Source: Bacteroidales bacterium
Lineage (GTDB): Bacteria > Bacteroidota > Bacteroidia > Bacteroidales > UBA932
Direction of reading: 5' to 3'
Length of the DNA stretch: 39,252 nt
Assembly (NCBI GenBank): GCA_024398105.1
Contig: JAKSJP010000023.1
Location: 1-39,252, forward strand
Part shown: piece after piece, positions 15,325 to 35,586 of the stretch
Layout of the letters: every line of letters begins with the position of its first letter
How positions within the stretch are numbered: the stretch's first letter is position 1
Position numbers and translations under genes: made by a program
The notes under the pieces: generated by a model
Seen by the model: only the letters and a program-made list of their open reading frames with translations
Told to the model about the DNA's origin: nothing
The model's database searches: none

Positions 15325-16692
15325 CTAGAGAGCGAAGGCTTTCTTTATCATGTCTACGCTGTCAAGCAGCTCCCAGCCGAAGAACTGGATGGTCTCCTCG
15401 ACCTCCTTTCCTCCGCGGATGAGCTTGACGGTCTCTGTGTATGGGGTACGTCCCATGTGGCCGTAGGATGCGGTCGGCTCGTAGATAGGGTTCTTGAGCT
15501 GGAACTTGCTGATGATCTTCGCAGGACGAAGGTCGAACAGGTCGTTGATCTTTGAGGCGATGAAGCTGTCTACACCCATTCCTGCTGCCTGGGCTGCCTC
15601 CTTCACGGTCTCGCAGGCGCTGCCGTAGCTGTCAACGAAGATGCTGACCGGCTTTGCGACGCCGATCGCGTAGGATACCTGCACGAGCATCTCACCGGCA
15701 ACGCCGGCTGCTACCATGTTCTTTGCGATATATCGTGCTGCATATGCTGCTGAACGGTCTACCTTTGAAGGGTCCTTGCCTGAGAAGGCTCCGCCGCCGT
15801 GCGCGCCCTTGCCGCCGTAGGTGTCTACGATGATCTTGCGGCCGGTGAGACCTGTGTCGCCGTGAGGACCGCCGATCACGAACTTGCCGGTAGGGTTCAC
15901 GAAGAGGATGCAGTCGTCGTCGAAGAGGGCTGCGGTCTCAGCAGGAAGGCTTTCCTTCACGCGTGGGATGAGGACCTTGCGTACGTCGTCCTCGATTCTC
16001 TGGTGCATCGCCTGGTCTACTTTCTCCTGGCCATACTTCTCGACTGCGGTCTTGTAGTCGATCTTGCCGAGGCTGTGGGCGAGGAACTCGTCGTGCTGGG
16101 TAGACACTACGATGGTATGGATCCTGACAGGCTTGTTGGTATTGCTGTCATACTCTACGGTGTACTGGCACTTTGCGTCAGGACGGAGGTATGGCATCAG
16201 CTCAAGGCTGTTCTTGCGGATGTCTGCAAGGATGCGGAGAGTCAGGTGGGAGAGGGCGAGAGGAAGCGGCATGTACTCCTCTGTGTCGTTGTTGGCATAG
16301 CCGAACATCATGCCCTGATCGCCGGCACCCTGGTTGTCGGCGTCTTCTCTTACGACTCCTCTGTTGATGTCGCGGCTCTGCTCATGGATCGCTGAAAGCA
16401 CACCGCATGAGTTGCCGTCGAACATGTATTCTGCCTTGTTGTAGCCGATCTTGTTTATCACACGGCGTACTACGGTCTGTATGTCTACATATGCGTCGTC
16501 GCTGCGGACCTCGCCGCCGACTACTACGAGTCCTGTCGAGCAGAATGTCTCGCAGGCTACCTTTGATTCTGCGTCCTGACGGAGGAACTCGTCGAGGACT
16601 GCATCGGAAATCTGGTCTGCTACCTTGTCTGGATGTCCCTCAGATACTGACTCTGAGGTGAAGAGGTAGGTTGAAAGCTTTTTTTCAGACAT
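15325..16692 (-). CDS. metK: S-adenosylmethionine synthase
   Basis: Makes S-adenosylmethionine from methionine and ATP. The N terminus has [20 protein letters not shown] (ATP/metal binding), then [12 protein letters not shown] and, near residue 300, [23 protein letters not shown], the metK signatures. At 455 residues it is longer than the E. coli enzyme (384), with extra sequence in the middle and C-terminal parts as in other Bacteroidetes. The gene is read through a 5' region carrying a candidate SAM-II riboswitch and an intrinsic terminator, so it is probably switched off by its own product. It faces smpB across 53 nt. Confidence 0.96.
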
Positions 16693-16761: not shown

Positions 16762-16796
16762 CGTCAAAAAACACACAAATAACTACCTGGGTAGAA

Positions 16797-16850
16797 ACAT
16801 TTTAGCATTTTTTAGCGTGGTTGCAAGCGGGCAAATCTCTCCACGAAATC
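16797..16850 (-). ncRNA. Candidate SAM-II riboswitch upstream of metK
   Basis: On the minus strand the hallmarks of the SAM-II (metA) aptamer appear in order: stem P1 CGTGG (16845-16841), loop with GATTT (16837-16833), the block TTGCAA (16826-16821), P1 return CCACG (16820-16816), an A-rich link and GCTAAA (16806-16801). The known SAM-II crystal-structure RNA has the same GAUUU, UUGCAA and GCUAAA blocks in the same places. Its location just after the metK promoter and before a terminator supports it. The second (pseudoknot) pairing could not be confirmed by eye. Confidence 0.75.
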
Positions 16851-16894: not shown

Positions 16895-16902
16895 TACCTT
16901 TG
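16895..16902 (+). promoter_or_regulatory. -7 box of the Oar-like receptor gene
   Basis: TACCTTTG fits TAnnTTTG and lies 45 nt before the start codon. No exact TTG is seen at the -33 position. The site overlaps the region of the divergent metK promoter. Confidence 0.5.
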
Positions 16903-16947
16903 TGCCTTGTTGTACGTAGCAAGTATTTTGTTTTAACATATTCAGTA

Positions 16948-19900
16948 ATGATGAGAAATTCCTTTATGAGGTTTTTCCTCGCGTGCATGACTCTCATGCT
17001 CGCAGGCGTTGTCGCCAATGCACAGGTGACAACATCTTCTATCGCTGGTAAGGTTGTGGATGCGGACGGCCCTGTGGCAGGTGCTGCTGTCATCGCGACC
17101 TACAATCCGACCGGTTCTAACTACTACACCGTTACAGACGCCAACGGTGCGTACCGCATCAATGCAGTGACCGCAGGTGGTCCTTATACTGTCATCGTCG
17201 ACATGCTCGGCTACAGGAAGGTCGAGAACACAGGCGTATACGCTCCTCTCTCTGAGGTAGTCTATGTAAACGCTGCCCTCGAGGTTGAGTCAATGGGTCT
17301 CGACGCAGTCGTATTCGTTGCAGAAGGAGCCGGCTCAAGCATGAACATCGAGCGCTCAGGTGCAGGTACTGCAGTGAGCCAGAAGACAATGGAGCAGCTC
17401 CCTACATCTTCACGTTCAATGAACGATGTCCTCAAGCTTACTCCTCAGGCATCGGTCACCTCAAACGGTCTCGCAGTCGGTGGCGGTAACTACCGTTCAT
17501 CTTATGTGACTGTCGACGGTGCTGCATTCAACAATGCATTCGGTATCGGTGGCAACCTCCCTGCAGGCGGTACTCCTATCTCACTCGACGCTCTCGAGCA
17601 GATGAGCATCAACATCACTCCGTTCGACGTACGCCAGTCAGGCTTCACCGGTGGCGCCATCAACGCTGTCACCAAGTCTGGTACCAACGAGCTCCACGCT
17701 TCTGTCTACAACTACTACAAGAGCGACGAGGTCACAGGCTACAAGCTCGGTGAGAACACAGTCAACCGTTCAGACTATCTCGACAACACTACCGGTATCA
17801 CCCTCGGTGCCCCTATCATCAAGAACAAGCTCTTCTTCTTCGTGAATTTCGAGTATTCACAGGACGTAACTCCTGGTTCTTCACTCAGAGTACGTGAGAA
17901 CGAGAATGAGGCATTCGGCGGCAACACCGGAGTCGTACGCCCTACACAGGCATTCATGGAGGAAGTCAAGACTTTCCTCGCTGACAAGTATGGCTATGAC
18001 CCAGGCCGTTACCAGGGCTACTCGCTCAGCACTCCTGACTGGAAGGTCATGGCACGTCTTGACTGGAACATCAACGACAACCATAAGTTCAACGTACGTT
18101 ACAGCCAGACAATGAACAAGAACTCCAACAGTCCTTCTTCATCTGTCAACCCTCTCAACCCTAACCCATACAACAGGAGCAACTACGGCCGTACATCTTC
18201 ATACGCTCAGTTCTTCGAGAGCTCACGCTACTTCCAGGAGCAGAACTTCATGTCAGTCGCAGCCGAGCTCAACTCACGTTTCATGGAAGGTCGTCTCAAC
18301 AACCTCCTCCGTGTCACCTGGTCACACCAGAACGAGCCTCGTAGCTTCGTAGGTGACGACTTCCCTACAGTCGACATCCTCCAGAACATCACCACTGACT
18401 ATTCAGGAAAGGATCTCGGTGGCGAGACAAGGGCACTCATCACTTCATTCGGTCCGGATCCATTCACTTATGGCAACCTTCGTGACGTACAGACAATCGT
18501 CGCTACTGACGAGGTAAGCTACCGTACAGGTATCCACAATGTGATCATGGGTGGCCAGTTCGAGTGGAACGATACCAAGAACGGCTTCATGCAGGGTGGT
18601 CTCGGATACTATGTATACAACTCTTGGGAGGATTTCAAGAATGACGCAACTCCTGCTGCATTCGCGATCACCCACTCTAACAGAGATGACCTCCAGCAGG
18701 TATACCCTGCATTCCAGTACATGCAGGCTTCATGGTATGCTCAGGATGAGGTTTCATTCAGCGACTACTTCAAGCTTACCGCAGGTATCCGCTTCGAGCT
18801 CCCTATCTATCCTACTATCGAGGGTAACGAGAACAAGGAGTTCACAGCACTCGGACAGGAGGGAACCACTCTCTATGGCCACAAGACATCAGACATGCCT
18901 CTCAACCGTGTGAACGTATCTCCACGTATCGGTTTCAACTGGGATATCCTCAAGAACAGGAATCTCGTCCTCCGCGGAGGTTCAGGTGTCTACACCGGAC
19001 GTATCCCGTTCGTATGGATCGTATCTGTAGCAGGTAACAGCAACTGCCTCCAGGCTCAGTACATCACCACTACCGACGGCAAGAACCCATCAGAGACTGC
19101 AGCCGGCGCTCCTAATTTCCATACCACCGTCCCTGAGATCCTCAAGGATGTCTACGGCGGATCATTCAAGGCACAGGATCTCTATGCTCCTACTGCTACC
19201 ACAGTCCTTGACAAGCATCTCAAGATGCCTACCACATGGAAGTCTTCACTCGCACTCGACGCACGTCTCCCAGGTGGAATCAAGGCTACCGTAGAGGGTA
19301 TCTACAACTACGATCTCTCTTCAGTATATGTCGACAAGCTCGGTCTTACAGAGGGATCAGCCGTAACTCTTCCTGGTGAGCCTGCTTCACGTCCATCATG
19401 GAAGAACGAGGGGCTCAATAACAGCCTCGGCCAGGCCGTACAGCCTTACTACATCTACAACCTCAACAATCTCCACGGTTACTACTATTCAGTCACCGCA
19501 CAGCTCCAGAAGGACTTCGGCTTCGGTCTCTCCCTCATGGCAGCTTATACCAGAAGCGACAGCAAGAGCCTCTCTGACGGTATCGGTGACCAGATCAGCT
19601 CTGCTTACAACACCATGACATACAACGTCAACGGTACAAAGATCGCCGAGCTCGGACATGGCACATATGTATCTCCTAACCGTGCGATCGCAAACGTAAG
19701 CTACAGAATCAAGGAGGGCAAGCACCTTGCTACGACTCTCTCAGCATTCTACGAGGGCTTCAACTATGGCTATGTAGGCAGCTACTCATACACAAGATAC
19801 TCTTACACAATGGCTAACCAGACAGGTGACGGCGGTGCACAGAACCTTATCTATATCCCTACCGATTCACAGCTTGACGCCATGCCGTTCTCTTCAGACG

Positions 19901-20259
19901 AGAACAAGGCTGCCTACAAGGCATTCCTTGCAAGTGACAAGTATCTCAGCGCACACAGAGGCGAGTACAGCGAGAGAGGTGCAGTCGTGATGCCATGGGT
20001 GAACAGAGTAAACGTAAAGGTTGCTCAGGACTTCATGGTCAACTGCGGCAAGAAGGTACATACTCTCCAGCTTGCAGTCGACATCAACAACATCGGCAAC
20101 ATGATCAACAGCAACTGGGGCGCATACCAGCGCATGAGCTCAGACCAGATCCTCAACTACTCTAAGGGTGCATACACCTTCACAGAGCCTACATGGTCTG
20201 TATACAACAGCACAGCGTCTACATGGAACATGATGATTTCAGCTAAGTACTCTTTCTAA
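16948..20259 (+). CDS. Oar-like TonB-dependent outer-membrane protein
   Basis: A 1103-residue outer-membrane receptor of the Oar type. ATG codons at 16948 and 16951 are both usable; upstream extension to 16900 would run into the -7 box. A signal peptide (cleavage near ANAQ) is followed by a carboxypeptidase-regulatory-like Ig domain (SSIAGKVVDADGPVAGAAV). A plug domain follows, with the Oar hallmark LDALEQMSINITPFDVRQSG and FTGGAINAVTKSGTN, then a long Tyr/Asn-rich barrel ending in Phe. Oar proteins serve in adhesion, surface signalling or uptake of large ligands; the ligand here is unknown. There is no SusD partner. It is a single-gene unit with its own terminator. Confidence 0.9.
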   Translation: MMRNSFMRFFLACMTLMLAGVVANAQVTTSSIAGKVVDADGPVAGAAVIATYNPTGSNYYTVTDANGAYRINAVTAGGPYTVIVDMLGYRKVENTGVYAPLSEVVYVNAALEVESMGLDAVVFVAEGAGSSMNIERSGAGTAVSQKTMEQLPTSSRSMNDVLKLTPQASVTSNGLAVGGGNYRSSYVTVDGAAFNNAFGIGGNLPAGGTPISLDALEQMSINITPFDVRQSGFTGGAINAVTKSGTNELHASVYNYYKSDEVTGYKLGENTVNRSDYLDNTTGITLGAPIIKNKLFFFVNFEYSQDVTPGSSLRVRENENEAFGGNTGVVRPTQAFMEEVKTFLADKYGYDPGRYQGYSLSTPDWKVMARLDWNINDNHKFNVRYSQTMNKNSNSPSSSVNPLNPNPYNRSNYGRTSSYAQFFESSRYFQEQNFMSVAAELNSRFMEGRLNNLLRVTWSHQNEPRSFVGDDFPTVDILQNITTDYSGKDLGGETRALITSFGPDPFTYGNLRDVQTIVATDEVSYRTGIHNVIMGGQFEWNDTKNGFMQGGLGYYVYNSWEDFKNDATPAAFAITHSNRDDLQQVYPAFQYMQASWYAQDEVSFSDYFKLTAGIRFELPIYPTIEGNENKEFTALGQEGTTLYGHKTSDMPLNRVNVSPRIGFNWDILKNRNLVLRGGSGVYTGRIPFVWIVSVAGNSNCLQAQYITTTDGKNPSETAAGAPNFHTTVPEILKDVYGGSFKAQDLYAPTATTVLDKHLKMPTTWKSSLALDARLPGGIKATVEGIYNYDLSSVYVDKLGLTEGSAVTLPGEPASRPSWKNEGLNNSLGQAVQPYYIYNLNNLHGYYYSVTAQLQKDFGFGLSLMAAYTRSDSKSLSDGIGDQISSAYNTMTYNVNGTKIAELGHGTYVSPNRAIANVSYRIKEGKHLATTLSAFYEGFNYGYVGSYSYTRYSYTMANQTGDGGAQNLIYIPTDSQLDAMPFSSDENKAAYKAFLASDKYLSAHRGEYSERGAVVMPWVNRVNVKVAQDFMVNCGKKVHTLQLAVDINNIGNMINSNWGAYQRMSSDQILNYSKGAYTFTEPTWSVYNSTASTWNMMISAKYSF

Positions 20260-20278: not shown

Positions 20279-20316
20279 AAAATGGCCAGTCTGTAAAGAT
20301 TGGCCATTTTTGTTTT
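20279..20316 (+). terminator. Strong intrinsic terminator after the Oar-like gene
   Basis: AAAATGGCCA (20279-20288) pairs with TGGCCATTTT (20301-20310). The stem extends inward through GTCT/AGAT (one G-T pair) to a GTAA loop, followed by TGTTTT. It isolates the Oar-like gene from the nuclease operon. Confidence 0.9.
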
Positions 20317-20418: not shown

Positions 20419-23400
20419 ATGAGAAAACTTAAAGATCTTTTCATTTCTGTTCTTGCGATGGCGATGGTCGCTGTTGCGTGTACAAGGGAAGATGACGCTC
20501 CTCTCGGAGCTCCGTCCATCACCTTTGAGCAGAATACTCTCGAATTTGAGAAAGCTGGCGGTGACCAGACTTTGGTGCTCACCAGCACAAGAGACTGGAC
20601 TGCAACCTGTGCGGAGTCATGGGTGGGCCTCAGCAAGGTGAGCGGCACCGGTTCTACAAAGAGCCAGCAGATCACCATCAGCGTAGACCCTAACGACGGC
20701 TACGACAGGTCCGCATCTATTTCGTTCGTCGCCGGTGACAAGCTCGTTACCAGAAACGTCATCCTCAGGCAGGCCGGCTCAGGCCCTGCTCCTGTCACAG
20801 GAATCTTCTATGAGGTCAACTTCAAGACCGCAGGATTCGCTGACTGGGAAGTCAAGGACGTCGTGAAGCCAGATGCAATTTCCGAGATCTGGAAGTACAA
20901 TGCATCCTACGGCCTTGTGGCTACAGCCTATGCAAATCCTACAAACTATGCATCAGAGAGCTGGATCTACTCTCCTGAGATTGACCTCACTGTCGTCCAG
21001 TCTGCGCATCTGTGCTTCTCACATGCGGCAAACTACTTCACCAATGTGAAGACAGACGTGACTCTCTGGCTTCAGGTCGAGGGAGAGGAAGGCTTCACCC
21101 ATCAGCTTGAGATACCTGTCTATCCTACAAGCTTCACCTATGTCGAGTCAGGTGACATCGACCTCCAGGAGTATGTAGGCAAGAAGATCCGTCTTGGATT
21201 CAGGTATACCAGCTCAGCCACAAAGGCTGGTACATATGAGATCCAGAACCTCAGGGTATCTACAGATCCGTTCGAGACAGTCATCCCTGAGATTCCTGAT
21301 GAGGGAACCGGAACAGGAACTGCAGAGGATCCTTATGACGTAGCAAAGGCAGACGCTGTCATCTCGGCAGGTGCGGCTTCTACTGACAAGGTCTATGTGA
21401 AGGGTATCATCTCAAAGATCAAGGAAGTCGATACAAACTATGGCAATGCGACATACTGGATCTCAGATGACGGCACAGAGTCCAAGCAACTTGAGATCTA
21501 CCGTGGCTACAACCTCAACAATGTCAAGTTCACTGCGGCAGACCAGATCAAGGTCGGTGACAATGTGGTAGTCTACGGCGTGCTTGTCGATTTCAACGGA
21601 ACACACGAGATGACCCAGGGCAACTACATCTACTCTCTCAACGGCGAGACCGGTGATGTCACACCGGATCCTGGTACTCCTGAGACACCGGAGGGAACAG
21701 TTGTCTACTCTAACGACTTCGACAAGGAGGTAGCCCAGGCTACCTACGGAACCGGCAAGTCATGGCCATATCTTGACCAGTTCGACGGCTGGAAGAACGA
21801 GACAGGCTCAGGCATCTCGACTGTCGATTACGGCTTCAAGGGTGTCAGTGCCCGTGCGAACAGCGCTTCTGACGGTAGTTACTCGAACTATAAGGGCTCG
21901 GGTTCCAACAACATCTTCTTCGGCTCGAATGCATATTTCATCGTCAAGAAGATCACTCTCGCCGAAGGCCGCAACTATGTGGTCACATTCGGCTCGGAGA
22001 AGTACCTCAATGGCGGAGACTCAAACTTCAACAAGGATGAGTTCAAGGTCTATGTCAGCAACGATGGCATCAAGTGGGTTGCCCTTGACTATCAGGTAGG
22101 CAGCAGCGATGCCAGCGGCAAGTGGAATATCAATACTTCAGACACATTCGCAGTAGGTGCTGACGACAATTCTCTCTATGTCTACTTCACTGCAAGCGTC
22201 GCAAGCGCATACAGGCTCGATGACGTAGTGCTCACCGCGGTCGAGGCAGAAGGCGCTGCAGTTGATTTCTCAGCAGGTATCACTCTCGAGGGCGGCGAGA
22301 CCCCTGACGAAGGCGGTGACCAGCCGGGAGAGGGTGGCGACCAGCCAGGCGAAGGTGGTGACGAGCCATCTGGTACCATGACCATAGCACAGATGTTCAA
22401 TGCTGCAGACGGATCGGAGGTCGAGTCAAATGAGATCTTCGTTGCGGCTGTGACATCAAGAGGCTATGTCGCTCTCGAGGACGGCAAGGCAGTCTATGTC
22501 TACCATAATTCTGCACCTTCTGTAGCAGTAGGCGACAAGGCTACCTTCAAGGGAACAAAGACAACTTACTATGGTCTCCCTGAGATCACATCTCCTACTA
22601 CTGTCAAGGTTTCATCCGGAAATACCGTCCCTTATCCTTCAGCAAAGGATATCACAGCAGGCTTTGATTCATACAACGCTTCAGAGGCTGAGTATATCAC
22701 TTTCGAGGCTACAGTGATTAAGGACGGCTCTTATACCAACTTCGAAGTTGCGGGCGCAACAAAGAACAAGGGTACTCTCTCTCACGCTCCATCAGCTGTC
22801 TTTGACAATTTCAAGGAGGGTGACAAGATCCGTCTCACAGGCTTCTTCAATACTCTCAACACCTCTAAGAACCTCGTCCAGGTCATCTACGTCTCTTCAG
22901 AAGTCCTTTCAGGTGAAGGCGGCGAAAACCCTGGTGAAGGCGGCGAGAACCCAGGAGAGAACCCTGGCGAAGGCGGCGAGAATCCAGGAGAAGGCGGTGA
23001 GAACCCTGACGTACCTGCAGGCGAGGTGAGCATCAGCGTCAGCGGCGCTGTCGTTACATTCCGAAGCGCTGCCGAGATCGTCGGCGAGTCTGTCACCTGC
23101 GACCTCAACGCACAGGGATGGGAGAATGCACAGACCGTCACTGAACTTACTCTTGCAGACGGTACCGTACTCACCTTCAGCAAGGGAACTAATCCAAGCA
23201 ACCCTCCTAAGTTCTACACAGCGTCAAAGGGCGTAAGACTTTACGCAAACAATACACTCTCAGTCGCAGGCTCGAAGAAGCTCGCGAAGGTAGTATTGGA
23301 ATGTGACAGCTACCAGGGAACCGACTATGTCGGAAATGATACTCTCTGCGCAACAGAGGAAGGCAATACCTGGGTCATCGACAACAAGTACGCTCAGACT

Positions 23401-23454
23401 TCAGGAGGCGTCCAGCTCAGAATCAAGACAATCACAATCTCATACGCTGAGTAA
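20419..23454 (+). CDS. Multi-domain surface lipoprotein: BACON, two OB-like and two jelly-roll-like domains
   Basis: A 1011-residue lipoprotein (lipobox ending VAVAC, Cys21). Domains in order: a BACON domain (about 33-117, with TRDWTATCAESWVGLSKVSG); a jelly-roll of the choice-of-anchor J kind (about 121-290, SWIYSPEIDL and GKKIRLGFRYTS); an OB-like domain (about 300-415, DKVYVKGIISKIKEV and GDNVVVYGVL); a second jelly-roll (about 426-614); a Gly/Glu/Pro linker; a second OB-like domain (about 653-828, GYVALEDGKAVYVYH); a second linker; and a C-terminal beta domain (869-1011). No catalytic motif is seen, so it is probably a binding protein. First gene of a five-gene operon, 6 nt before a nuclease gene. 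OB folds often bind nucleic acid, but the ligand is inference. Confidence 0.8.
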   Translation: MRKLKDLFISVLAMAMVAVACTREDDAPLGAPSITFEQNTLEFEKAGGDQTLVLTSTRDWTATCAESWVGLSKVSGTGSTKSQQITISVDPNDGYDRSASISFVAGDKLVTRNVILRQAGSGPAPVTGIFYEVNFKTAGFADWEVKDVVKPDAISEIWKYNASYGLVATAYANPTNYASESWIYSPEIDLTVVQSAHLCFSHAANYFTNVKTDVTLWLQVEGEEGFTHQLEIPVYPTSFTYVESGDIDLQEYVGKKIRLGFRYTSSATKAGTYEIQNLRVSTDPFETVIPEIPDEGTGTGTAEDPYDVAKADAVISAGAASTDKVYVKGIISKIKEVDTNYGNATYWISDDGTESKQLEIYRGYNLNNVKFTAADQIKVGDNVVVYGVLVDFNGTHEMTQGNYIYSLNGETGDVTPDPGTPETPEGTVVYSNDFDKEVAQATYGTGKSWPYLDQFDGWKNETGSGISTVDYGFKGVSARANSASDGSYSNYKGSGSNNIFFGSNAYFIVKKITLAEGRNYVVTFGSEKYLNGGDSNFNKDEFKVYVSNDGIKWVALDYQVGSSDASGKWNINTSDTFAVGADDNSLYVYFTASVASAYRLDDVVLTAVEAEGAAVDFSAGITLEGGETPDEGGDQPGEGGDQPGEGGDEPSGTMTIAQMFNAADGSEVESNEIFVAAVTSRGYVALEDGKAVYVYHNSAPSVAVGDKATFKGTKTTYYGLPEITSPTTVKVSSGNTVPYPSAKDITAGFDSYNASEAEYITFEATVIKDGSYTNFEVAGATKNKGTLSHAPSAVFDNFKEGDKIRLTGFFNTLNTSKNLVQVIYVSSEVLSGEGGENPGEGGENPGENPGEGGENPGEGGENPDVPAGEVSISVSGAVVTFRSAAEIVGESVTCDLNAQGWENAQTVTELTLADGTVLTFSKGTNPSNPPKFYTASKGVRLYANNTLSVAGSKKLAKVVLECDSYQGTDYVGNDTLCATEEGNTWVIDNKYAQTSGGVQLRIKTITISYAE
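22291..22374 (+). repeat. First Gly/Glu/Pro linker repeat inside the BACON/OB lipoprotein gene
   Basis: In-frame repeats encode variants of the heptapeptide GEGGDQP between the second jelly-roll and the second OB-like domain. It is likely a flexible spacer, and the 21-bp units could expand or contract by slippage without shifting the frame. Confidence 0.8.
22912..23010 (+). repeat. Second linker repeat, heptad GEGGENP
   Basis: Four units encoding GEGGENP, with one shortened GENP unit in the middle and a final D, 33 residues in all. It joins the second OB-like domain to the C-terminal beta domain. All units keep the frame. Confidence 0.85.
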
Positions 23455-23460
23455 CGGCAG

Positions 23461-24675
23461 ATGGGCAGATTCCGTAACATACTGACCCGCCCGGTGACAG
23501 TGCTTTTCGTGGCACTGTCACTGCTGTGCGTGTCATGTGGCAAGGACGACACGAGCACCATCCCTATCCTCAGCTTCAAGACCAACCCTGTGCCTAAGGA
23601 GGCCGGTTCGCAGCACCTGTCCGTTACGGCGACAGCCGACTGGTCTGTCTCTGTAAGCTATACAGGAAGCCAGAGCGACTGGCTGTCGACCAACAGGACC
23701 AGCGGGGACAAGGACAATGGTGACCTTGTTCTCAGGTACACCGAGAACCTCGAAGAGGAGGACCGTCTTGCGACGATCCGCGTACAGTCCGGCAGCAAGA
23801 GCTCAGAATACACTTTCACCCAGAAGGGCCACAAGGTCGAAGCTCCTGCGGGTACGGCACGTGTATGGATGGAACTCCCTGAGATCGACCCTCATAACAG
23901 CGGCTGTGCGTTCTTCACCCATACGATGACGGTAGGATCGGTTTCCACAAGGAACTATTCCTATTACTGGGACTATGCAGACAGGGTATCTCTCTGGGTG
24001 GCATATCCTCTCAACTCGTGGAACATCGGATCGTATTACGGCCGTTCGGATGCATGGGCGTTCGACCCTCTTCTCCCGGCTTCCCTGCAGTCAGATGTCT
24101 CAAGCGGCTATGGCCGTGGAAATGACGGTGACAGGTATGACAGGGGACATCAGATCCCTTCAGCCGACCGTCAGGGTTCCTATGCCAACAATGCCCAGAC
24201 CTTCTATGGCACTAACATGACTCCTCAGAACAACGGCTTCAATTCCGGTCTCTGGGCCCATCTCGAGGGCAGCGTCAGGAAATGGGCGGATAAGAGCGAT
24301 ACACTTTACGTCCTGACCGGATGCGTAGTGGAACCAGGCCTCAGGAAATATGTGACCGATGCATCATCCAACAAAGTCGCGATACCTGTGGCGTACTACA
24401 AGGCTCTTCTGAGGTACCAGCGTTCGTCGACCGTGGGCGTATCGGGTTCTGACTTCATGGGCTGTGCGTTCTACTTCGACCATGTCGAGTACAGCGCTGC
24501 CGGAAAGAACGACCTTCCTGTGTCCAGCGGTCTCTCTATTTCCATAGCGGAGCTTGAAAAGAAACTTGGATACCGTCTCTTCGCAAACCTTGACGCCAAG
24601 GTGGGAGAGGAGACAGCAGCAAAGATCAAGAACCAGAATCCATCCCAGGTCAGCTGGTGGTGGAATAACAAATAG
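23461..24675 (+). CDS. BACON-domain DNA/RNA non-specific endonuclease (NUC1 family), lipoprotein
   Basis: A 404-residue lipoprotein (signal ending LLCVSC, Cys26). Residues about 35-122 form a BACON domain (TADWSVSVSY and SDWLSTNRTSG). The rest is a NUC1-type beta-beta-alpha-metal nuclease: DRYDRGHQIPSADR (224-237) contains the DRGH motif with catalytic His230. It is followed by FYGTNMTPQNNGFNSGLWAHLE, which supplies the metal-binding Asn region. Such enzymes cut single- and double-stranded DNA and RNA without sequence preference using Mg. The lipid anchor means it acts outside the cytoplasm, probably at the cell surface. Gaps are 6 nt to the lipoprotein gene and 2 nt to the next nuclease gene. 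Confidence 0.92.
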   Translation: MGRFRNILTRPVTVLFVALSLLCVSCGKDDTSTIPILSFKTNPVPKEAGSQHLSVTATADWSVSVSYTGSQSDWLSTNRTSGDKDNGDLVLRYTENLEEEDRLATIRVQSGSKSSEYTFTQKGHKVEAPAGTARVWMELPEIDPHNSGCAFFTHTMTVGSVSTRNYSYYWDYADRVSLWVAYPLNSWNIGSYYGRSDAWAFDPLLPASLQSDVSSGYGRGNDGDRYDRGHQIPSADRQGSYANNAQTFYGTNMTPQNNGFNSGLWAHLEGSVRKWADKSDTLYVLTGCVVEPGLRKYVTDASSNKVAIPVAYYKALLRYQRSSTVGVSGSDFMGCAFYFDHVEYSAAGKNDLPVSSGLSISIAELEKKLGYRLFANLDAKVGEETAAKIKNQNPSQVSWWWNNK

Positions 24676-24677
24676 CG

Positions 24678-25748
24678 ATGAAAAAGATAATCACATCAGT
24701 ACTTGTGCTCCTAGCAGCTCTTCCGCTCGCATTCGCAGACGGGAAGAAGGAGGCATATGTCATCGGTTTCTATAACCTTGAGAACCTTTTCGACACCTAC
24801 CATGATGACGGAAAGAACGATTATGAATATCTTCCGGACGGCGCGAACCAGTGGACCGAGGACAAGTACGAGAAGAAACAGCATAACATGGCAAGGGTGA
24901 TCAGGGCCATGGCAGACGAGAACGGTACTTTCCATACTCTTCTCGGTGTAAGTGAGATTGAGAACAGGCATGTCCTCGAGGATCTCGTAAGCCAGCCGGA
25001 GCTCGCACCTGCCAATTTCCAGATCGTCCATTATGACGGACCCGACCGCAGAGGTGTCGACGTGGCTCTTCTCTACAGGCCGGAGAATTTCACGGTCATC
25101 GAGAGCAAGTCGATTCCTTTCACCTTCGAGAACTCCAATGTTGAGTTCTCACTCAGCAAGGAGGAGCAGGAAGACTTCCGTACCCGTGACATCCTGATGG
25201 TACGAGGCCTTCTCGGAGGAGAGATGTTCGCGATCTTCGTAGCCCATCTTCCTTCAAGGACAGGAGGAAAGGGAGGCGATCTCAGAAGCCGTGGCGGCGA
25301 GATCATGTATGCCGAGGCAAACCGTCTCATGGACGAGTTCCCAGGCATCAAGATCGTCTGCATGGGTGACATGAACGACAACCCTACCGACGACAGCATG
25401 GCCGTCTATATGCATGGCAAGGAAAAGATAGCGGACGTCGGCGAGAGGGACTTCTTCTCACCGTTCGTCTCTATGCTCAAGGCCGGATACGGTTCGCTCC
25501 CATATCAGGGACAGTGGAATATCTACGACATCATCGTCACTAATTCCGCAGTAGTGAACCCAGCCCCAGGTACTCTCGGGATCATCCCTATCGTCAAGAA
25601 GAAGTTCTACGCCAGAATCTTCCATCAGCCGTTCATGGTGCAGCAGGAGGGCCAGTACAAGGACCAGCCTAAGAGAACCTATTCCAACGGTACGTTCATC
25701 AATGGTTACAGCGACCATTATCCTACATACATAGTAGTAAGCAAATAA
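24678..25748 (+). CDS. Secreted endonuclease/exonuclease/phosphatase-family protein
   Basis: A 356-residue exported protein (signal MKKIITSVLVLLAALPLAFA) with the EEP fold shared by DNase I, exonuclease III and phospho-diesterases. Catalytic signatures are complete: YNLENLFD (Asn), SEIENR (Glu93), DRRGVDVALLY, VAHLPSRTGG (His), GDMNDNP (Asp231, Asn233) and the final SDHYP (Asp346, His347). The substrate could be nucleic acid, a nucleotide or another phosphodiester; the adjacent NUC1 nuclease favours nucleic acid. It has a plain SpI signal, so it is periplasmic or secreted rather than lipid-anchored. Gaps of 2 nt upstream and 11 nt downstream make it part of the operon. Confidence 0.93.
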   Translation: MKKIITSVLVLLAALPLAFADGKKEAYVIGFYNLENLFDTYHDDGKNDYEYLPDGANQWTEDKYEKKQHNMARVIRAMADENGTFHTLLGVSEIENRHVLEDLVSQPELAPANFQIVHYDGPDRRGVDVALLYRPENFTVIESKSIPFTFENSNVEFSLSKEEQEDFRTRDILMVRGLLGGEMFAIFVAHLPSRTGGKGGDLRSRGGEIMYAEANRLMDEFPGIKIVCMGDMNDNPTDDSMAVYMHGKEKIADVGERDFFSPFVSMLKAGYGSLPYQGQWNIYDIIVTNSAVVNPAPGTLGIIPIVKKKFYARIFHQPFMVQQEGQYKDQPKRTYSNGTFINGYSDHYPTYIVVSK

Positions 25749-25759
25749 AGAAATCAGAT

Positions 25760-28711
25760 ATGTTCAGAAAAGCAACAATGGCGGTCATCGCCCTCCTGTG
25801 TTCTCTGAGTCTCCTGGCTCAGGACTACACCGGCGGTGTGAAAGGAAAGGTCATCAGCCGTTCCGACAGGTCGCCTATCCAGCAGGCCAGCGTCACCCTT
25901 TTCCAGGGTGCCGTAGAAATTGCATCTACCGCTTCGGACACAGAGGGTGACTTCCTGATCGAGAACCTCGCGGACGGTATGTATGACCTCGTCATCAAGG
26001 CACCTGAGTTCCTTGACACAAGGGTCAACGTGACTGTGAACGACGGTTACGTAAAGAACATGTTCAACCTTTCGATGTCTCCATCCGTCATCGCACAGGA
26101 GCTTGATGCTTCCAATTTCGCGGAGTTTGACCTCGATGACTCAGGATACAGCGACAATCCTACCATCCTCTTCGGCCAGAACGATGTGTTCAACGAGATC
26201 GCCGGCTACAACTTCAGTTCAGTGCGTTTCCGTGCGCGTGGCTATTCGAGTGAGAGCCAGGATGTCTATCTCGCTGGAGTCAAGATGAACGATGCCATGA
26301 CCGGATCGGCTCCGTTCTCCCTCTGGAGCGGCCTCAACGAGCCTACCAGGACCAAGGACGCCTATGATGGCTCGGACGTCGCAACCTTCGCATTCGGCGG
26401 CTACAACGGAACCACGAACATCCCTGTCCTCGCATCCTATGTGAGAAAGGGCCTCCGCGGAAGCGTCCTGACCAACAGCGCGCTCTATCGCCTCCGTCTT
26501 ATGATGACCTATGCGTCAGGACCTCTTGACAATGGTTGGTCATACGCGTTCAGCGCATCGGCACGACTCGGCGGAAATGACTGGATCGACGGTATCTACT
26601 ACCGTTCGTTCGCCTACTATGCGTCGGCTGAGAAGAAGTTCAACGACGTCCACAGGATCGGAGCTGCGTTCATGGCAACTCCAGGCCAGAGAGGTGCGCA
26701 GAACTCTTCTACCCAGGAGGTCTACGACCTCGTAGGAGACAACATGTACAACTCTAACTGGGGATACCAGGACGGAAAGATGCGCAACGCCCGTGTCCGC
26801 AAGACACACGAGCCGATCGCCATCCTCAAGTACGACTTCACTCCTACAGAGGAGTTCAGCCTTGCTGCGACACTTCTCTACCGTTTCGGCAAGAACGGCT
26901 ACACCGCGCTTGACTGGTACGATGCAGCGGACCCACGTCCGGACTACTACCGCAATCTTCCAAGCTACTTCTATATGGAAGAAAGCGACTACAACAGACA
27001 GAATCCGTTCAAGGCAGCATGGGCTGCGGATGCATGGTCTACAGGTTACGACCAGAATCTCATCCACATCAACTGGGACCGTCTCTACAATGTCAACCAG
27101 AACAGCATCGGCGAGGGCGGAAGGCTCCGTTCGAAGTACGTCCAGGAAGAAAGACGCGTAGACCAGAGAGACCTCAATTTCGCAGTTTCATACAAGTGGC
27201 GTCCAGACAACCACTTCCAGCTCACAGGTGGCGCGGACGCGAAGATCAACAGGACTGAGAACTTCAAGGTCCTCGCAGACCTCCTTGGTGGTGAATACTT
27301 TGTGGACATCGACAACTTCGCGGAGCGTGAGTTCGCTTCTTCTGAAGGCAAGCTCCAGAATGACCTCGACTACTATTTCGCCCATGGACAGGCAAAGACT
27401 CTTGAGAAGGGTGACAAGTATGGCTATGACTACCTCGCCCAGGTCCGTAACGCAAGCATCTGGTCCAACGCCCAGCTTTCTTTCGGCAACTTCAAGGGCA
27501 ACGTCGCTGCAAGCCTCGGAGCTACTTCGTTCTGGAGAGACGGACTTGTACGCAAGGGTCTCTTCGCAGGTCTTGACGAGAACGGTAACGAGATCAAGGA
27601 CAATGCAGGCAATGTCCTTACGACTTACAACCCTCAGACCGGAGAGGTGATCAGCTCATACGGCAAGTCAGTGAAGAACAATTTCCTCACTTATGGCGTG
27701 AAGGCCGGTGCTGAGTATCGTCTTGGCGGCAGTATGAGATTCTATGGACATGTCGGCTATATGACCGAGGCTCCTAAGTTCAACAAGGCATATCTCTCGC
27801 CTAGGACCAGGAACTCTATCGTGAACGACCTCACCACTATCAAGAACTTCACAGCGGACATCAACTACCAGCTCACTCTCGGTACCTGGAATTTCCGTGC
27901 GACCGGTTTCTATACCACCATCGAGGACCAGACAGATGTGATGAGCTACTATGACGACCTTCAGAACGCATTCACGAACCTTGCTCTCAGCGGCATCGAT
28001 GAGCGTCACATGGGTATCGAGGTCGGTTTCAAGATTCCTACCCCTGTCCAGGACCTTGCCATCCAGGGTGCGGTCTCATATGGTGAGTACATCTATACCT
28101 CCAATCCTCGTATGACCCAGACTGTGGACAACAGCGCTGAGGTTACAATCCTCAACGAGATCGTTCCTTACTGGCAGAGCCATCCTGTCTACAAGAAGAA
28201 TGCTGACGGAAGCTTCATCCTTGATGACGAGGGCAACGGTATCTTTGACTATGACAAGAAGCACTACGTGCCTAGCACTCCGCAGCTCGCTGCAAGCATC
28301 GGTCTCGCATGGAACCGTAACTACTGGTTCATCGACGGAGATGTCGAGTACTTCGCCAAGTCATATCTTGACATGAACCCGGTCTACAGGACAGACTTCG
28401 CCGCTGCGGGTCCTGACCATCTGGAGACTCCTTCGGAAATCGAGTATATGTCTGCCCAGGAGGAATTCGACCCTGCGTTCCTTGTGAACCTCAATATCGG
28501 AAAGTCATGGTACATCGACCGTAAGTACCAGATCGGCTTCTCGCTCAATGCAAAGAACCTGCTCAACAACAAGACTGTCAAGACAGGCGGTTATGAGCAG
28601 ACCCGTCTCGTGGACAATACAGTCGGAAAGGAGAGATACTACCGCTTCGATTCCAAGTATTTCTACAACAACGGCATGAACTATATGTTGAACGTTTATT
28701 TCAGATTCTAA
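25760..28711 (+). CDS. TonB-dependent receptor of the nuclease operon
   Basis: A 983-residue outer-membrane receptor: signal peptide (cleavage near LLAQ, residue 20), a carboxypeptidase-regulatory-like domain (about 25-110, GGVKGKVISRSDRSPIQQASVTLFQG), a plug region (about 130-240, including SVRFRARGYSSESQDVYLAGVKMND), and a beta barrel rich in Tyr, Asn and Arg that ends YMLNVYFRF. It differs from SusC-type receptors in that no SusD-like gene is beside it; its neighbours are nuclease genes and a DUF5689 lipoprotein. The natural guess is import of a breakdown product of nucleic acid, or of the polymer itself, which is inference. Confidence 0.92.
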   Translation: MFRKATMAVIALLCSLSLLAQDYTGGVKGKVISRSDRSPIQQASVTLFQGAVEIASTASDTEGDFLIENLADGMYDLVIKAPEFLDTRVNVTVNDGYVKNMFNLSMSPSVIAQELDASNFAEFDLDDSGYSDNPTILFGQNDVFNEIAGYNFSSVRFRARGYSSESQDVYLAGVKMNDAMTGSAPFSLWSGLNEPTRTKDAYDGSDVATFAFGGYNGTTNIPVLASYVRKGLRGSVLTNSALYRLRLMMTYASGPLDNGWSYAFSASARLGGNDWIDGIYYRSFAYYASAEKKFNDVHRIGAAFMATPGQRGAQNSSTQEVYDLVGDNMYNSNWGYQDGKMRNARVRKTHEPIAILKYDFTPTEEFSLAATLLYRFGKNGYTALDWYDAADPRPDYYRNLPSYFYMEESDYNRQNPFKAAWAADAWSTGYDQNLIHINWDRLYNVNQNSIGEGGRLRSKYVQEERRVDQRDLNFAVSYKWRPDNHFQLTGGADAKINRTENFKVLADLLGGEYFVDIDNFAEREFASSEGKLQNDLDYYFAHGQAKTLEKGDKYGYDYLAQVRNASIWSNAQLSFGNFKGNVAASLGATSFWRDGLVRKGLFAGLDENGNEIKDNAGNVLTTYNPQTGEVISSYGKSVKNNFLTYGVKAGAEYRLGGSMRFYGHVGYMTEAPKFNKAYLSPRTRNSIVNDLTTIKNFTADINYQLTLGTWNFRATGFYTTIEDQTDVMSYYDDLQNAFTNLALSGIDERHMGIEVGFKIPTPVQDLAIQGAVSYGEYIYTSNPRMTQTVDNSAEVTILNEIVPYWQSHPVYKKNADGSFILDDEGNGIFDYDKKHYVPSTPQLAASIGLAWNRNYWFIDGDVEYFAKSYLDMNPVYRTDFAAAGPDHLETPSEIEYMSAQEEFDPAFLVNLNIGKSWYIDRKYQIGFSLNAKNLLNNKTVKTGGYEQTRLVDNTVGKERYYRFDSKYFYNNGMNYMLNVYFRF

Positions 28712-28714
28712 GCC

Positions 28715-29836
28715 ATGAAAAGATCATTCATCAGCATATTTGAAAGAAAGGCGGCGGCCATGAAGCCATTCGCAGGCTTCGCAGCTGCAGCCGTGCTTCT
28801 CGCTTCCTGCGAGGAATGGGAGCCGGTCTATACTCTGAAATATGACGAGCCGGCAAACTATGAGAGGGTTACCATGACCCCGACCCATACCATCGCGCAG
28901 CTCGCTGCGATGTATGAGATCGGTAATCCTAAGACTATCGAGGAGGATATCATCATCGCCGGAAAGGTCAATTCCAGCGACCAGTCCGGAAACTTCTACA
29001 AGAGTTTCTATATCCAGGACGAGACAGGCGGCATCGAGGTCAAGGTCGGAAGGAGCAGCCTCTACAGCGACTATAAGGAAGGCCAGACCGTCTATGTCGA
29101 TCTCCATGGTCTTACGATCGGCATGTATGGCTACAAGACTCTCAAGGAGTATGCGGACGGCCCTTCAGGAGGAAACGGACTCGTGCAGATCGGTCTTGAG
29201 GACCCTACGAACGAGTACGAGACTTCATATATCGAGGTAGAACCGATCATCAACGCACATATCTTCCGTGGCCAGGACGGTGACAAGGTGAAGCCGGTGG
29301 TACTCACAGAGAAGGATCTTCCAGGCAGGACAGCGACCCTCAAGGACAGCCCTGTGCTCGGCAAGCTCGTGACCATCAAGGGTCTTAAGTATTCGGACAA
29401 GATCTTCACCCTTGCCTATATCAACAGCAACCTTGACAAGAAGGCTTCATCGAACCGAATCTTCCTGTCTGACCAGACATGGGGAGTCACCACATGGGCG
29501 ATGTCCAAGAATCTCTTTGTCCAGAAGCTCGACGAGGGTGCTTTCGATTCTGTCAAGATCGGCAACTCAGGCGATTATAACTATGGTACCGTGGCAGACC
29601 ACAAGGATGAGATTCGCAGCAATGCCGCTGCCGCTACTGTCAGCCAGTATTTCACCTGCGGCAAGACCGAGCTCGCAGTCAGGACCAGCGGTTTCGCCAA
29701 GTTCGGCGACGCCGAGATTCCTGCAGAAGTCCTCAACGGCTCAGCCACCATCGACGTCACCGGTGTCCTCTCCCTCTACCAGGGCGACATCCAGCTCACC
29801 ATCAACAGCCTTGATGACATCGTAGTCAACAAGTAA
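28715..29836 (+). CDS. DUF5689-like OB-fold lipoprotein
   Basis: A 373-residue lipoprotein. ATG at 28715 or, giving a more compact signal peptide, ATG at 28760 (lipobox LLASC). The segment EEDIIIAGKVNSSDQSGNFYKSFYIQDETGGIEVKVGRSSLY, followed by GQTVYVDLHGLTIGMYGY, is the OB-like core seen in DUF5689 proteins. A second related part follows (about 200-370; LVTIKGLKYS and IDVTGVLSLYQGDIQLTINSLDDI). No enzyme motif is seen. It lies 3 nt after the receptor gene, in the position where a SusD-like surface lipoprotein would sit in a polysaccharide locus, and may do the same job for another ligand. Its stop codon lies inside a 21-bp tandem duplication. Confidence 0.8.
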   Translation: MKRSFISIFERKAAAMKPFAGFAAAAVLLASCEEWEPVYTLKYDEPANYERVTMTPTHTIAQLAAMYEIGNPKTIEEDIIIAGKVNSSDQSGNFYKSFYIQDETGGIEVKVGRSSLYSDYKEGQTVYVDLHGLTIGMYGYKTLKEYADGPSGGNGLVQIGLEDPTNEYETSYIEVEPIINAHIFRGQDGDKVKPVVLTEKDLPGRTATLKDSPVLGKLVTIKGLKYSDKIFTLAYINSNLDKKASSNRIFLSDQTWGVTTWAMSKNLFVQKLDEGAFDSVKIGNSGDYNYGTVADHKDEIRSNAAAATVSQYFTCGKTELAVRTSGFAKFGDAEIPAEVLNGSATIDVTGVLSLYQGDIQLTINSLDDIVVNK

Positions 29837-29902: not shown

Positions 29903-29985
29903 GACACAAAAGCGGACCTATGAGAACGGGCTCCCAAGAACTTGGGAAAAGGTCGCCCTAACCTCATAGGTCCGCTTTTTGTGTC
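29903..29985. terminator. Long fold-back hairpin, probable bidirectional terminator
   Basis: A 22-nt arm at 29903-29924 is the inverse of 29963-29985 apart from one bulged base. Inside are GGGC/GCCC (29928-29931 with 29955-29958) and CCCAAG/CTTGGG (29933-29938 with 29941-29946). Arm ends carry A4 and T5 runs, giving U-rich ends in both directions. It lies between the convergent nuclease operon and topB. Confidence 0.75.
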
Positions 29986-32545: not shown

Positions 32546-34174
32546 TTATTTGAGTTCCAGCGGCTTGTAAAGCTTGAGCGCCTCCCTGAGCTGGTCGTCA
32601 TAGCGTAGACGTATCTCGACTCCAGCCTCCTGGAACTGATATCTTACTACGATCTCCTCCTCGATGAAAGGCACGATCTCGTCCTTCTTGAGACGGAGGA
32701 ACTTCTCCTTGTCAAGGTCGATCGCCTTGTCGAGAGCCTCGAGCTCAGCCTTCACCGACTCTTCCATTCCGTCCTTCGCGAGCTCCCTCTTCATCTGGTC
32801 GAAGAGAGTCTTTGCGTTCGAGCGGTAGTCGAACTCCTTGGTCTTCGCATAGGCGATGAAATCCTCGTAGTCCTTGTCGCTCAGGTGGAAATCCTTGGCT
32901 GCAGGGATGGACTCATGCTTCATCACATAGTCAAGGGCGAAAGGCTCGATATGGCCTCCGAGCACGAGAGAGTAGACAAGACGGCTGTAGTCCTTCTCCG
33001 CCACCTCGATGTCAGGGGTGATACCGCCGCCGTCGCGTACGATCCTGCCGCCTGCCGTCCTGAACTCATGTGTGAGCGAGTCAGCGATATATCCTACACT
33101 GCCGTCCTCGTTCCTGTGTGCATAGTCTATTGCCTGCACGCATCGTCCGCTAGGAGTGTAGTACTTTGCGGTAGTGACCTTGAGGGTGCCGTTGTAAGGA
33201 AGGGACCTGATGCTCTGCACGAGACCCTTGCCGTAGGTCTTCTTGCCCATGATGACAGCTCTGTCATAGTCCTGGAGGGCTCCTGCCACGATCTCGGATG
33301 AGGATGCGGTGCCGCCGCTGACCATCACGATCATCGGGGTGGTGGTGTCGATAGGGTCGAGGGTAGTCTTGTGCTCTACAGGCTTGTCCATCTCCTTGCC
33401 CTTCTGGGAAACTACGAGAGAACCCTTAGGGATGAAGAGGGAAGCGATGTTGACCGCCTCGTGGAGGAGTCCGCCTCCGTTGCCGCGAAGGTCGAGGACG
33501 AGAAGCTTCATGCCCTGCTTCCTGAGCTTGACCACAGCCTCGCGCACTGCGCTTGAGACGTTCTCGGTGAATCCTGTCTGGAGGATGTAGCCTGTCGTAT
33601 CATTGATCATTCCGGCGTACTCCACGTCCGGAAGATGTATCCTTTCACGCTTGATGGTGACCTCTTCGACCGCTCCGCCACGGACTCTCTTGATCTTGAA
33701 CTTCACATTGGTGCCCGGAGTTCCCTTCATCCTGTCGCTGCACTCCTTGGTCTCGAGACCTATGGTCGAGACGCCGTCGATCTCCATGATCTGGTCGCCG
33801 CAGACAAGGCCGTTCCTGGCAGCAGGAGCGTCCGCATATGGTTCGTTGATATAGACATAGCCGTCCTTCTCAGGCTTGTAGATGACGGCGCCTATGCCAC
33901 CATAGACCTTTCCGATCTGCATCTGGAAATCCTCGTTCTCCTCCTCCGGTACATAGACTGTATATGGGTCGAGGCTCTCGAGCATGGCGTCGATGCCGTT
34001 TCTCTGCATGCGGTCGAGCGGAAGCGAATCCACATATGACCTGTTCAGTTCCTTGAGTATGGCGTTGTTGATCTCTGTCCACTGTCCGAGCTTGAAGCTC
34101 TGTGACTGAGCGAAGGCCGAAGTTCCCGCAAGGAGAGCAATGGCCATGGTAAGTATATGTCGTGTAATCTTCAT
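32546..34174 (-). CDS. S41-family C-terminal processing peptidase
   Basis: Exported serine protease of the CtpA/Tsp family, 542 residues from ATG at 34174; an upstream ATG at 34192 would add six residues before the signal peptide and sits above the -7 box, so it is rejected. Signal peptide MKITRHILTMAIALLAG is cleaved near AFAQ. A PDZ domain (about 80-170, PAARNGLVCGDQIMEIDGVST) is followed by the catalytic core: LRGNGGGLLHEAVNIASLFIPKG, the nucleophile Ser at about 293 in TASSSEI, and the Lys in KKTYGKGLVQ about 25 residues on. It acts in the periplasm on C-terminal tails of proteins. Probably first gene of a two-gene unit with topB. Confidence 0.94.
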   Translation of the reverse strand: MKITRHILTMAIALLAGTSAFAQSQSFKLGQWTEINNAILKELNRSYVDSLPLDRMQRNGIDAMLESLDPYTVYVPEEENEDFQMQIGKVYGGIGAVIYKPEKDGYVYINEPYADAPAARNGLVCGDQIMEIDGVSTIGLETKECSDRMKGTPGTNVKFKIKRVRGGAVEEVTIKRERIHLPDVEYAGMINDTTGYILQTGFTENVSSAVREAVVKLRKQGMKLLVLDLRGNGGGLLHEAVNIASLFIPKGSLVVSQKGKEMDKPVEHKTTLDPIDTTTPMIVMVSGGTASSSEIVAGALQDYDRAVIMGKKTYGKGLVQSIRSLPYNGTLKVTTAKYYTPSGRCVQAIDYAHRNEDGSVGYIADSLTHEFRTAGGRIVRDGGGITPDIEVAEKDYSRLVYSLVLGGHIEPFALDYVMKHESIPAAKDFHLSDKDYEDFIAYAKTKEFDYRSNAKTLFDQMKRELAKDGMEESVKAELEALDKAIDLDKEKFLRLKKDEIVPFIEEEIVVRYQFQEAGVEIRLRYDDQLREALKLYKPLELK

Positions 34175-34180
34175 AACACA

Positions 34181-34218
34181 CAAATATATCAAATTCTCAG
34201 CCAGAATTGCTAAATTTG
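34181..34218. promoter_or_regulatory. Divergent promoters of the S41 protease and rdgB
   Basis: TATATTTG on the minus strand (34188-34181) lies 6 nt before the protease ATG. TAAATTTG on the plus strand (34211-34218) lies 20 nt before rdgB. The boxes are 22 bp apart, so their -33 regions overlap each other's -7 boxes. No exact TTG is seen for either. The protease mRNA would be nearly leaderless. Confidence 0.5.
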
Positions 34219-34238
34219 TCTACACACTTTCCAATATT

Positions 34239-34853
34239 ATGAAGATAGTTTTCGCAACTGCCAACCAGGGCAAGCTCAGAGAGGCTGCCGGAATCCTCGG
34301 AGAGGGATATGAACTCGTGACCCCAGCGATGCTCGGTATAACCGAGGACATCCCTGAGACAGGCACCACACTTGAGGAGAACTCCGCCCAGAAAGCTGAG
34401 TATCTCTATTCAAGATGCCATACCGACTGCTTCGCCGACGACACCGGACTTGAGGTAAATGCGCTCGGCGGCGCTCCAGGCGTCTATTCGGCGCGCTATG
34501 CCGGAGGCGACGGACATGACTCCCAGGCGAACATGGACAAGCTCCTGCGCGAGCTCCAGGGCAAGGAGGACCGTACGGCACGCTTCCACACCATCGTGAC
34601 TCTGTACCATGGTACCGAGATCCTGCAGTTCGAAGGCGAAGTCCGCGGCCGCATCGGGACCGAGAAGAAGGGCGACGGCGGCTTCGGCTATGATCCTGTC
34701 TTCATCCCTGACATGGTCCCTGCCGAGGACGGTACCATCGTACCTAATACCGAAGGCCTTACCATGGCCGAGGTCCCTGCCGCGAAGAACGTCATCTCGC
34801 ACAGAGCCATGGCGCTCAAGGCCATGGCAGCTTATCTCCATAGCAAGGAATAG
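34239..34853 (+). CDS. rdgB: Non-canonical purine NTP pyrophosphatase (HAM1 family)
   Basis: Hydrolyses ITP, dITP and XTP to monophosphates and so keeps deaminated purines out of DNA and RNA. The frame is open from 34140, but ATG at 34239 gives the family N terminus IVFATANQGKLREA. Further motifs are FADDTGLEVNALGGAPGVYSARYAG (substrate and metal binding), GDGGFGYDPVF and the C-terminal ISHRAMALKAM. The 204 residues are normal. recO begins 17 nt later, so the two are probably one unit for genome care. Confidence 0.96.
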   Translation: MKIVFATANQGKLREAAGILGEGYELVTPAMLGITEDIPETGTTLEENSAQKAEYLYSRCHTDCFADDTGLEVNALGGAPGVYSARYAGGDGHDSQANMDKLLRELQGKEDRTARFHTIVTLYHGTEILQFEGEVRGRIGTEKKGDGGFGYDPVFIPDMVPAEDGTIVPNTEGLTMAEVPAAKNVISHRAMALKAMAAYLHSKE

Positions 34854-34870
34854 CCCCGGAACAAGGTACC

Positions 34871-35521: not shown

Positions 35522-35560
35522 GATTATGGATATTCCGATGAAAGAATGAATATTTTTGAC

Positions 35561-35568: not shown

Positions 35569-35586
35569 GCGTCCCCACATGATGAT

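Follow-up and report, generated by a model that had tools for sequence, protein, structure and literature searches.

Results

A five-gene operon with a TonB-dependent receptor, two nucleases and two lipoproteins

The window analysed here is a stretch of 39,252 nucleotides (nt) from a Bacteroidales bacterium (GCA_024398105.1, JAKSJP010000023.1), contig 16 in a 48-contig, 2.43-Mb genome with a completeness of 91.8%. At 20419..29836 it carries five open reading frames (ORF1 to ORF5), all on the + strand and separated by 6, 2, 11 and 3 nt (Table 1). An earlier note on this DNA had listed the same five genes, coordinates and gaps, which we confirmed, and had proposed that they form a nucleic-acid foraging locus. 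As argued below, we read the operon as an importer of DNA across the outer membrane, related to a locus required for natural transformation in the duck bacterium Riemerella anatipestifer.

ORF2 matches the NUC1 family (PF01223) with 123.6 bits against a cut-off of 23, its matches among PDB sequences include the Serratia nuclease and EXOG, and in the alignment it has the His, Asn and Glu residues that we take to be catalytic. The catalytic His is kept in all 13 aligned rows; in eight of them (L085-L092; L and G labels denote our loci and genomes) DRGH has Ala, Ser, Thr or Gln in place of its Asp, with the His retained, while the window keeps DRGH, so that the NUC1-type nuclease with an intact motif named in the earlier note holds. 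By motif, both ORF2 and the EEP enzyme ORF3 are predicted to be exported, ORF2 as a lipoprotein. A strict regular expression for the EEP histidine found it in 3 of 9 sequences of the window's genus; this count was not used, since the expression excludes the window's own AHLPSR form.

The structural model of ORF4 has a plug and a large beta-barrel, as predicted for a TonB-dependent receptor, and its fold matches include BtuB1 with BtuG1 (8blw). The model of ORF5 matches OB folds across residues 44-195, placing this DUF5689 lipoprotein among predicted OB-fold proteins. ORF1 has BLAST matches to the C-terminal part of the DUF5689 lipoproteins of L083 and L084, and also to L081 and L095; its module types are those found C-terminal to DUF5689 in some relatives, and a profile comparison of its OB-like segment with DUF5689 returned a probability of 0.5%. 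Among solved structures, sequence searches returned no relative for the EEP enzyme or ORF1, a match limited to the N-terminal carboxypeptidase-like domain for the receptor profile, and a single short, doubtful match for DUF5689.

Two known system types were considered and rejected. No SusD family was found among the Pfam matches of ORF1-ORF5 (E<=0.01), which excludes a SusCD pair and agrees with the receptor without SusD described earlier. Membership of the ExeM/NucH family (NF033681, cut-off 300) was likewise discarded, as ORF1 reached 16.5 bits and ORF3 gave no match.

Table 1. Features of the operon and its borders in the window
Feature	Coordinates	Strand	Description	Basis
Terminator-like hairpin	20279..20310	+	Stem of 14 pairs followed by a T-rich tail, between the operon and the receptor gene upstream	Pattern match only
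ORF1	20419..23454	+	Lipoprotein with BACON, choice-of-anchor-J and OB-like segments	Pfam/NCBIfam, BLAST; lipobox read by eye
ORF2	23461..24675	+	BACON + NUC1-type (Endonuclease_NS) nuclease lipoprotein, DRGH intact	PF01223 1.2e-35
ORF3	24678..25748	+	Exported EEP-fold nuclease/phosphatase (Exo_endo_phos_3)	PF19580 6.4e-88; EEP tree
ORF4	25760..28711	+	TonB-dependent receptor with carboxypeptidase-regulatory domain; proposed outer-membrane DNA channel	Reciprocal best matches, model
ORF5	28715..29836	+	DUF5689 OB-fold lipoprotein; proposed surface DNA receptor	PF18942 9e-44, model
17-bp perfect inverted repeat ending in T run	29908..29979		Likely terminator between ORF5 and a convergent DNA topoisomerase gene	Pfam (topoisomerase)

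The EEP, receptor and DUF5689 genes form a conserved cassette

Linkage of these genes, a check that the earlier note had called for, was followed in three sets of loci: the best 80 of at least 581 loci from named organisms, mostly Chryseobacterium and kin; 34 selected loci, picked from genomes with a receptor match and including nine from the window's genus; and 18 further loci of the Riemerella family. Two of the latter repeat loci of the named set (L118/L202 and L151/L206), leaving 130 distinct loci of 132. The training set of the hidden Markov models used for the counts included some of the loci counted here. An EEP gene adjacent to the receptor together with a DUF5689 gene downstream of it was found in 119 of the 130 distinct loci (77/80 in the named set, 16/18 in the further Riemerella-family set and 28/34 in the selected set). 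The selected loci that do not show both neighbours are L074, L077, L080, L082, L096 and L097, among them two partial cases: L080 has an EEP gene 1.5 kb downstream, and in L097 a contig end lies beside the receptor. In the other sets the misses are L113, with a contig end on the EEP side, L168, L178, L200 and L209.

The window belongs to this pattern, with the DUF5689 gene (ORF5) directly downstream of the receptor, at 3 nt, and the PF19580 EEP gene (ORF3) 11 nt upstream. In the window's genus, NUC1, EEP, receptor and DUF5689 genes stand in the same order in 26 of 26 loci, own locus included (linkage counts in the genus are based on 1.5-kb flanks). The EEP gene lies head-to-head with the receptor in 78 of the 80 named loci. 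A NUC1 gene occurs within 3 kb in 12 of the 34 selected loci (all nine of the genus, L079, L080 and L081), in none of the 80 named loci and in none of the 18 further Riemerella-family loci. These results show that EEP, receptor and DUF5689 form a conserved cassette; the first outcome that the earlier note had named as refuting its proposal, a lack of such linkage in other genomes, did not occur. A contig assigned to a Candidatus Nitrotoga metagenome-assembled genome (L157) also carries a Flavobacterium-like cassette, probably through a binning error.

The receptor itself is accessory in the genus of the window and occurs almost throughout the Riemerella family, where a match is present in 292 of 296 genomes, 285 of the 286 good ones and 31 of 33 genera. 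Most of these genomes have a single match and some have two or three (in G486 and G534 the second is weaker and partial). Of 395 genomes spanning the phylum, 62 gave a match (E<=1e-60), and of 61 genomes, own included, 38 did (E<=1e-20).

The counterpart locus in Riemerella anatipestifer

A full-text literature search for DUF5689 returned a single paper, a transposon screen for natural transformation in R. anatipestifer (PMC8459023). Markerless deletion of RA0C_RS04915 or of the adjacent RA0C_RS04920 lowered transformation from 5.4e-5 to below detection. The former is described as an outer-membrane protein with pfam13620, the latter as a choice-of-anchor J protein with DUF5689 and DUF5017, and the authors speculate that RS04920 binds double-stranded DNA and RS04915 lets it through. 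They report no pilus homologues in Riemerella and state that the enzyme converting double-stranded to single-stranded DNA is unknown (PMC8459023). RS04910 is mentioned once in the main text, as an upstream gene with unchanged transcription, and the 16 markerless mutants listed in Table 2 of that paper do not include it. Our literature search found no paper linking the EEP gene to transformation, the EEP name itself not having been used as a search term.

We located the corresponding locus in genome G503, an assembly of one contig of 2,164,087 bp. Its gene order is recA, a dinB-type polymerase, genes for iron-sulphur, flavoprotein and cytochrome subunits (succinate dehydrogenase type) and comEC, followed by a 145-amino-acid ORF, a carboxyl transferase, a divergent EEP gene, the receptor, and a DUF5689 gene with DUF5017. 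Counting locus tags in steps of five gives RecA 04870, ComEC 04895, EEP 04910, receptor 04915 and DUF5689 04920, and the four tag functions given in PMC8459023 (RecA, ComEC, receptor and DUF5689) agree with this order. A published R. anatipestifer primer matches exactly in G503, and also in G516 (2 of the 6 genomes of that genus searched). From synteny and the exact primer we infer that G503 is R. anatipestifer and that the family searched is that of Riemerella; by gene order, RA0C_RS04910 would be the EEP enzyme.

ORF4 and the G503 receptor, in the place of RA0C_RS04915, are each other's best match between the two genomes, with an identity of about 29%. The G503 counterpart of ORF5 (L194 13231-14634) is a lipoprotein of the M949_1556 family (599.3 bits, cut-off 475). 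Judging by the title of a 2015 paper, M949_1556 is reportedly tied to the antigenicity and pathogenicity of R. anatipestifer.

Transformation of R. anatipestifer is also reduced when tonBA or tonBB is lost; iron acquisition is not decreased in the tonBA mutant, unlike in the tonBB mutant, and the authors think of nutrients (PMC8383284). A TonB-driven DNA receptor would directly explain the effect of tonBA on transformation.

Candidate genes for later steps of DNA uptake

The window's genome encodes DprA (PF02481, 220 bits) and a 336-amino-acid helix-hairpin-helix protein with two HHH_3 stretches. The latter matches (phmmer 1.5e-40) a 447-amino-acid protein at about 528 kb in G503, which, from its proximity to the expected place, may be RA0C_RS02645. 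Seven ComEC proteins from other families of the window's order (526-709 amino acids) and the ComEC of G503 have both DUF4131 and the channel, and in none of these eight was a metallo-beta-lactamase domain matched (E<=0.001). Because the G503 ComEC shows no nuclease domain, the adjacent EEP enzyme is a candidate for the missing strand-degrading nuclease.

A compact ComEC, which keeps the channel core only, characterizes the window's genus (L179, L212-L217). ComEC matches were obtained in all 24 of the other genus genomes searched, and none has an open frame longer than 406 amino acids. This compact form appears to be shared across the genus and therefore is not a local break. ComEC proteins without one or both side domains are known, and whether such species transform remains to be shown; pneumococcus uses EndA for strand degradation (PMC12455585).

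Probable origin of the expanded operon

The one-strand operon with an OB/BACON lipoprotein and NUC1 was found in the window's genus plus one outside genome. In the receptor tree, which was built quickly and has long branches but lacks an outgroup, the loci with a same-strand EEP gene and NUC1 form one clade of 11 rows (SH-aLRT 100), made up of the window's genus and L079. The EEP tree also sets the genus and L079 apart as one clade, and groups ORF3 with the cassette EEPs, apart from five paralogues.

L079 (8449-16583), sister to the genus, has a divergent EEP gene 4.4 kb upstream in addition to the operon EEP, and appears to be an intermediate between the two gene orders. Since these two EEPs fall in different groups of the EEP tree, ORF1, NUC1 and a second copy of EEP were probably inserted between the receptor and the original EEP gene to give the operon; within the genus, the original copy would then have been lost from this place. 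In L071, L073, L160, L162, L169-L171, L173 and L175, a second, distant EEP gene is found beyond the receptor, 1.4-4.1 kb downstream and on the opposite strand; the five of these placed in the tree form a separate clade.

Transcription and neighbouring genes

The five genes probably form a single transcript, as a hairpin precedes ORF1 and an inverted repeat with a T run follows ORF5. A promoter scan was uninformative, with 6 sites against 6.5 expected. Upstream of the operon, and cut off from it by the hairpin, lies a gene for a second large outer-membrane receptor (OMP_b-brl_4, CarboxypepD_reg; 16900-20259, +); a similar protein is one of the few genes listed near the cassette of L086 and of L092. 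Further upstream, a SAM-II riboswitch (16792-16850, -; 58.3 bits, gathering threshold 44) stands directly 5' of an S-adenosylmethionine synthetase gene (15325-16692, -). At 34140-38340, 4-8 kb downstream, genes for a Ham1-type nucleotide pyrophosphatase, a Porin_O_P protein and a Gate (nucleoside recognition) protein are clustered, and may be unrelated.

Discussion

The best reading of these data is that the operon is a pilus-free, TonB-driven DNA importer of the outer membrane. We consider it fairly probable that it corresponds, in expanded form, to the machine needed for transformation of R. anatipestifer. Import of DNA is more likely than a generic feeding system because the receptor and its partner lipoprotein are counterparts of two proteins required for DNA uptake in that species. 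The experimental support, namely the need for receptor and lipoprotein and the TonB effect, comes from R. anatipestifer and is carried over by analogy; our analysis adds the reciprocal best match of the receptors, the linkage of EEP, receptor and DUF5689, and the predicted OB and receptor folds. Under this reading ORF5, helped by ORF1, would bind extracellular DNA at the cell surface, where ORF2 would cut it. ORF4, powered by TonB, would then move the DNA through the outer membrane, ORF3, as the exported EEP enzyme, would trim it or remove one strand in the periplasm, and the helix-hairpin-helix protein and ComEC would carry single strands onward. DNA as the cargo of ORF4 itself, the surface location, the step assigned to each nuclease and a transformable host are all inferred.

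Several observations weigh against this interpretation. The identity between ORF4 and the receptor tested experimentally is only about 29%. ORF5 scores 76.1 bits with the NCBIfam M949_1556 model (NF052645) against its cut-off of 475, so it falls outside that subfamily and appears to be a divergent counterpart of the G503 protein. One or both neighbours are missing in 11 of the 130 distinct loci, and among 36 other genomes of the window's genus, many of them incomplete, 25 have a strong receptor match, one a weak match and ten none. Flavobacterium johnsoniae, which has all the homologues, could not be transformed under the conditions tested (PMC8459023). ComEC is a further difficulty: the window organism's own protein has 370 amino acids, exceeds the PF03772 cut-off over model positions 1-237 of 270 (leaving the C-terminal end of the Competence domain short), and shows no DUF4131 (OB) domain and no metallo-beta-lactamase match. 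Six further ComECs of the genus are alike (349-394 amino acids, 40-45% identity to it, with a common end). G038, which is 99% complete, has a complete cassette (L095, G038:C13) and no ComEC match, the sole such genome among 41 searched. The two exported nucleases in the operon would also suit degradation of DNA for food.

Such points lead to the main rival in the window's lineage, nucleic-acid foraging, in which DNA or RNA fragments would be bound, cut and imported for phosphate, nucleosides or carbon, an old transformation importer having been turned to feeding by the addition of NUC1 and a second, operon-borne EEP enzyme. The presence of two nucleases in a single operon (one a lipoprotein, judged by motif), the compact ComEC of the genus, the G038 cassette and the single derived state of the added genes in the receptor tree all fit this alternative, yet we hold it to be unlikely: transformation depends on the counterparts of both receptor and lipoprotein (PMC8459023), and in the Riemerella family, where the receptor is near-universal and the EEP gene adjacent, no NUC1 gene was found within 3 kb in the 18 further loci, nor was one in the 80 named loci. 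DNA import is the core common to transformation and feeding, and transformation is placed ahead because of the evidence on the counterpart genes. Of the earlier proposal, the SusD-less receptor, the nucleases, the OB lipoprotein and a likely DNA cargo stand. Foraging is unproven and probably not the primary role, because the only experimental evidence found on the counterparts is their requirement in natural transformation of R. anatipestifer (PMC8459023); it may still take place in the window organism, given the reduced ComEC, the two operon nucleases and the cassette without a ComEC match in G038. Very improbable, in our view, is a mere clearing of surface DNA, in which biofilm DNA or DNA nets would be the target of the nucleases, and the receptor would carry an unrelated ligand and have only its regulation in common with them. 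Both nucleases look exported by motif, as such a role would have it, but the linkage of EEP, receptor and DUF5689 survives a change of strand and order and spans families, and R. anatipestifer without the receptor no longer transforms (PMC8459023).

Extending the DNA-import reading to the phylum, we propose tentatively, as a possibility we would not yet lean on, that EEP, receptor and DUF5689 constitute a pilus-free, TonB-powered DNA import module across Bacteroidota that replaces the type IV pilus secretin, and that the nuclease for strand degradation which their ComEC lacks is provided by the adjacent EEP enzyme, joined by NUC1 in the lineage of the window. The locus connects the transposon screen of PMC8459023, and with it the question of how Bacteroidota such as Riemerella take DNA through the outer membrane, with a three-gene cassette that is conserved, points to a neighbouring nuclease absent from the tabulated R. 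anatipestifer mutants, and shows an expanded form of the cassette in another order of the same class. If the proposal is true, it allows direct tests of DNA import, and hence of gene flow, in a large bacterial group.

Compared with the RA0C_RS04915/RS04920 locus, the window has a counterpart receptor, a DUF5689 gene directly downstream and an EEP gene directly on the other side (by gene order RA0C_RS04910 in R. anatipestifer). It differs in that the EEP gene is on the same strand inside the operon, in the additional NUC1 and BACON/choice-of-anchor lipoproteins, and in a DUF5689 protein without the choice-of-anchor-J part of RA0C_RS04920. With importers of the SusCD and BtuB-BtuG types it shares a TonB-dependent barrel with a lipoprotein partner, but it has no SusD family, its lipoprotein is an OB-fold DUF5689 protein, and it is linked to nucleases; other Bacteroidota importers carry glycan or vitamin enzymes or binders. 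ExeM combines OB-like and EEP domains in a similar way, whereas in the window they lie on separate proteins, far from the NCBIfam cut-off of ExeM/NucH. Pneumococcal EndA also belongs to the NUC1 superfamily. As with EndA, a nuclease separate from ComEC would prepare the DNA for uptake (PMC3764208, PMC12455585); the envelope is a different one, ORF2 is predicted to be anchored as a lipoprotein, and the roles of ORF2 and ORF3 are those we would assign to them.

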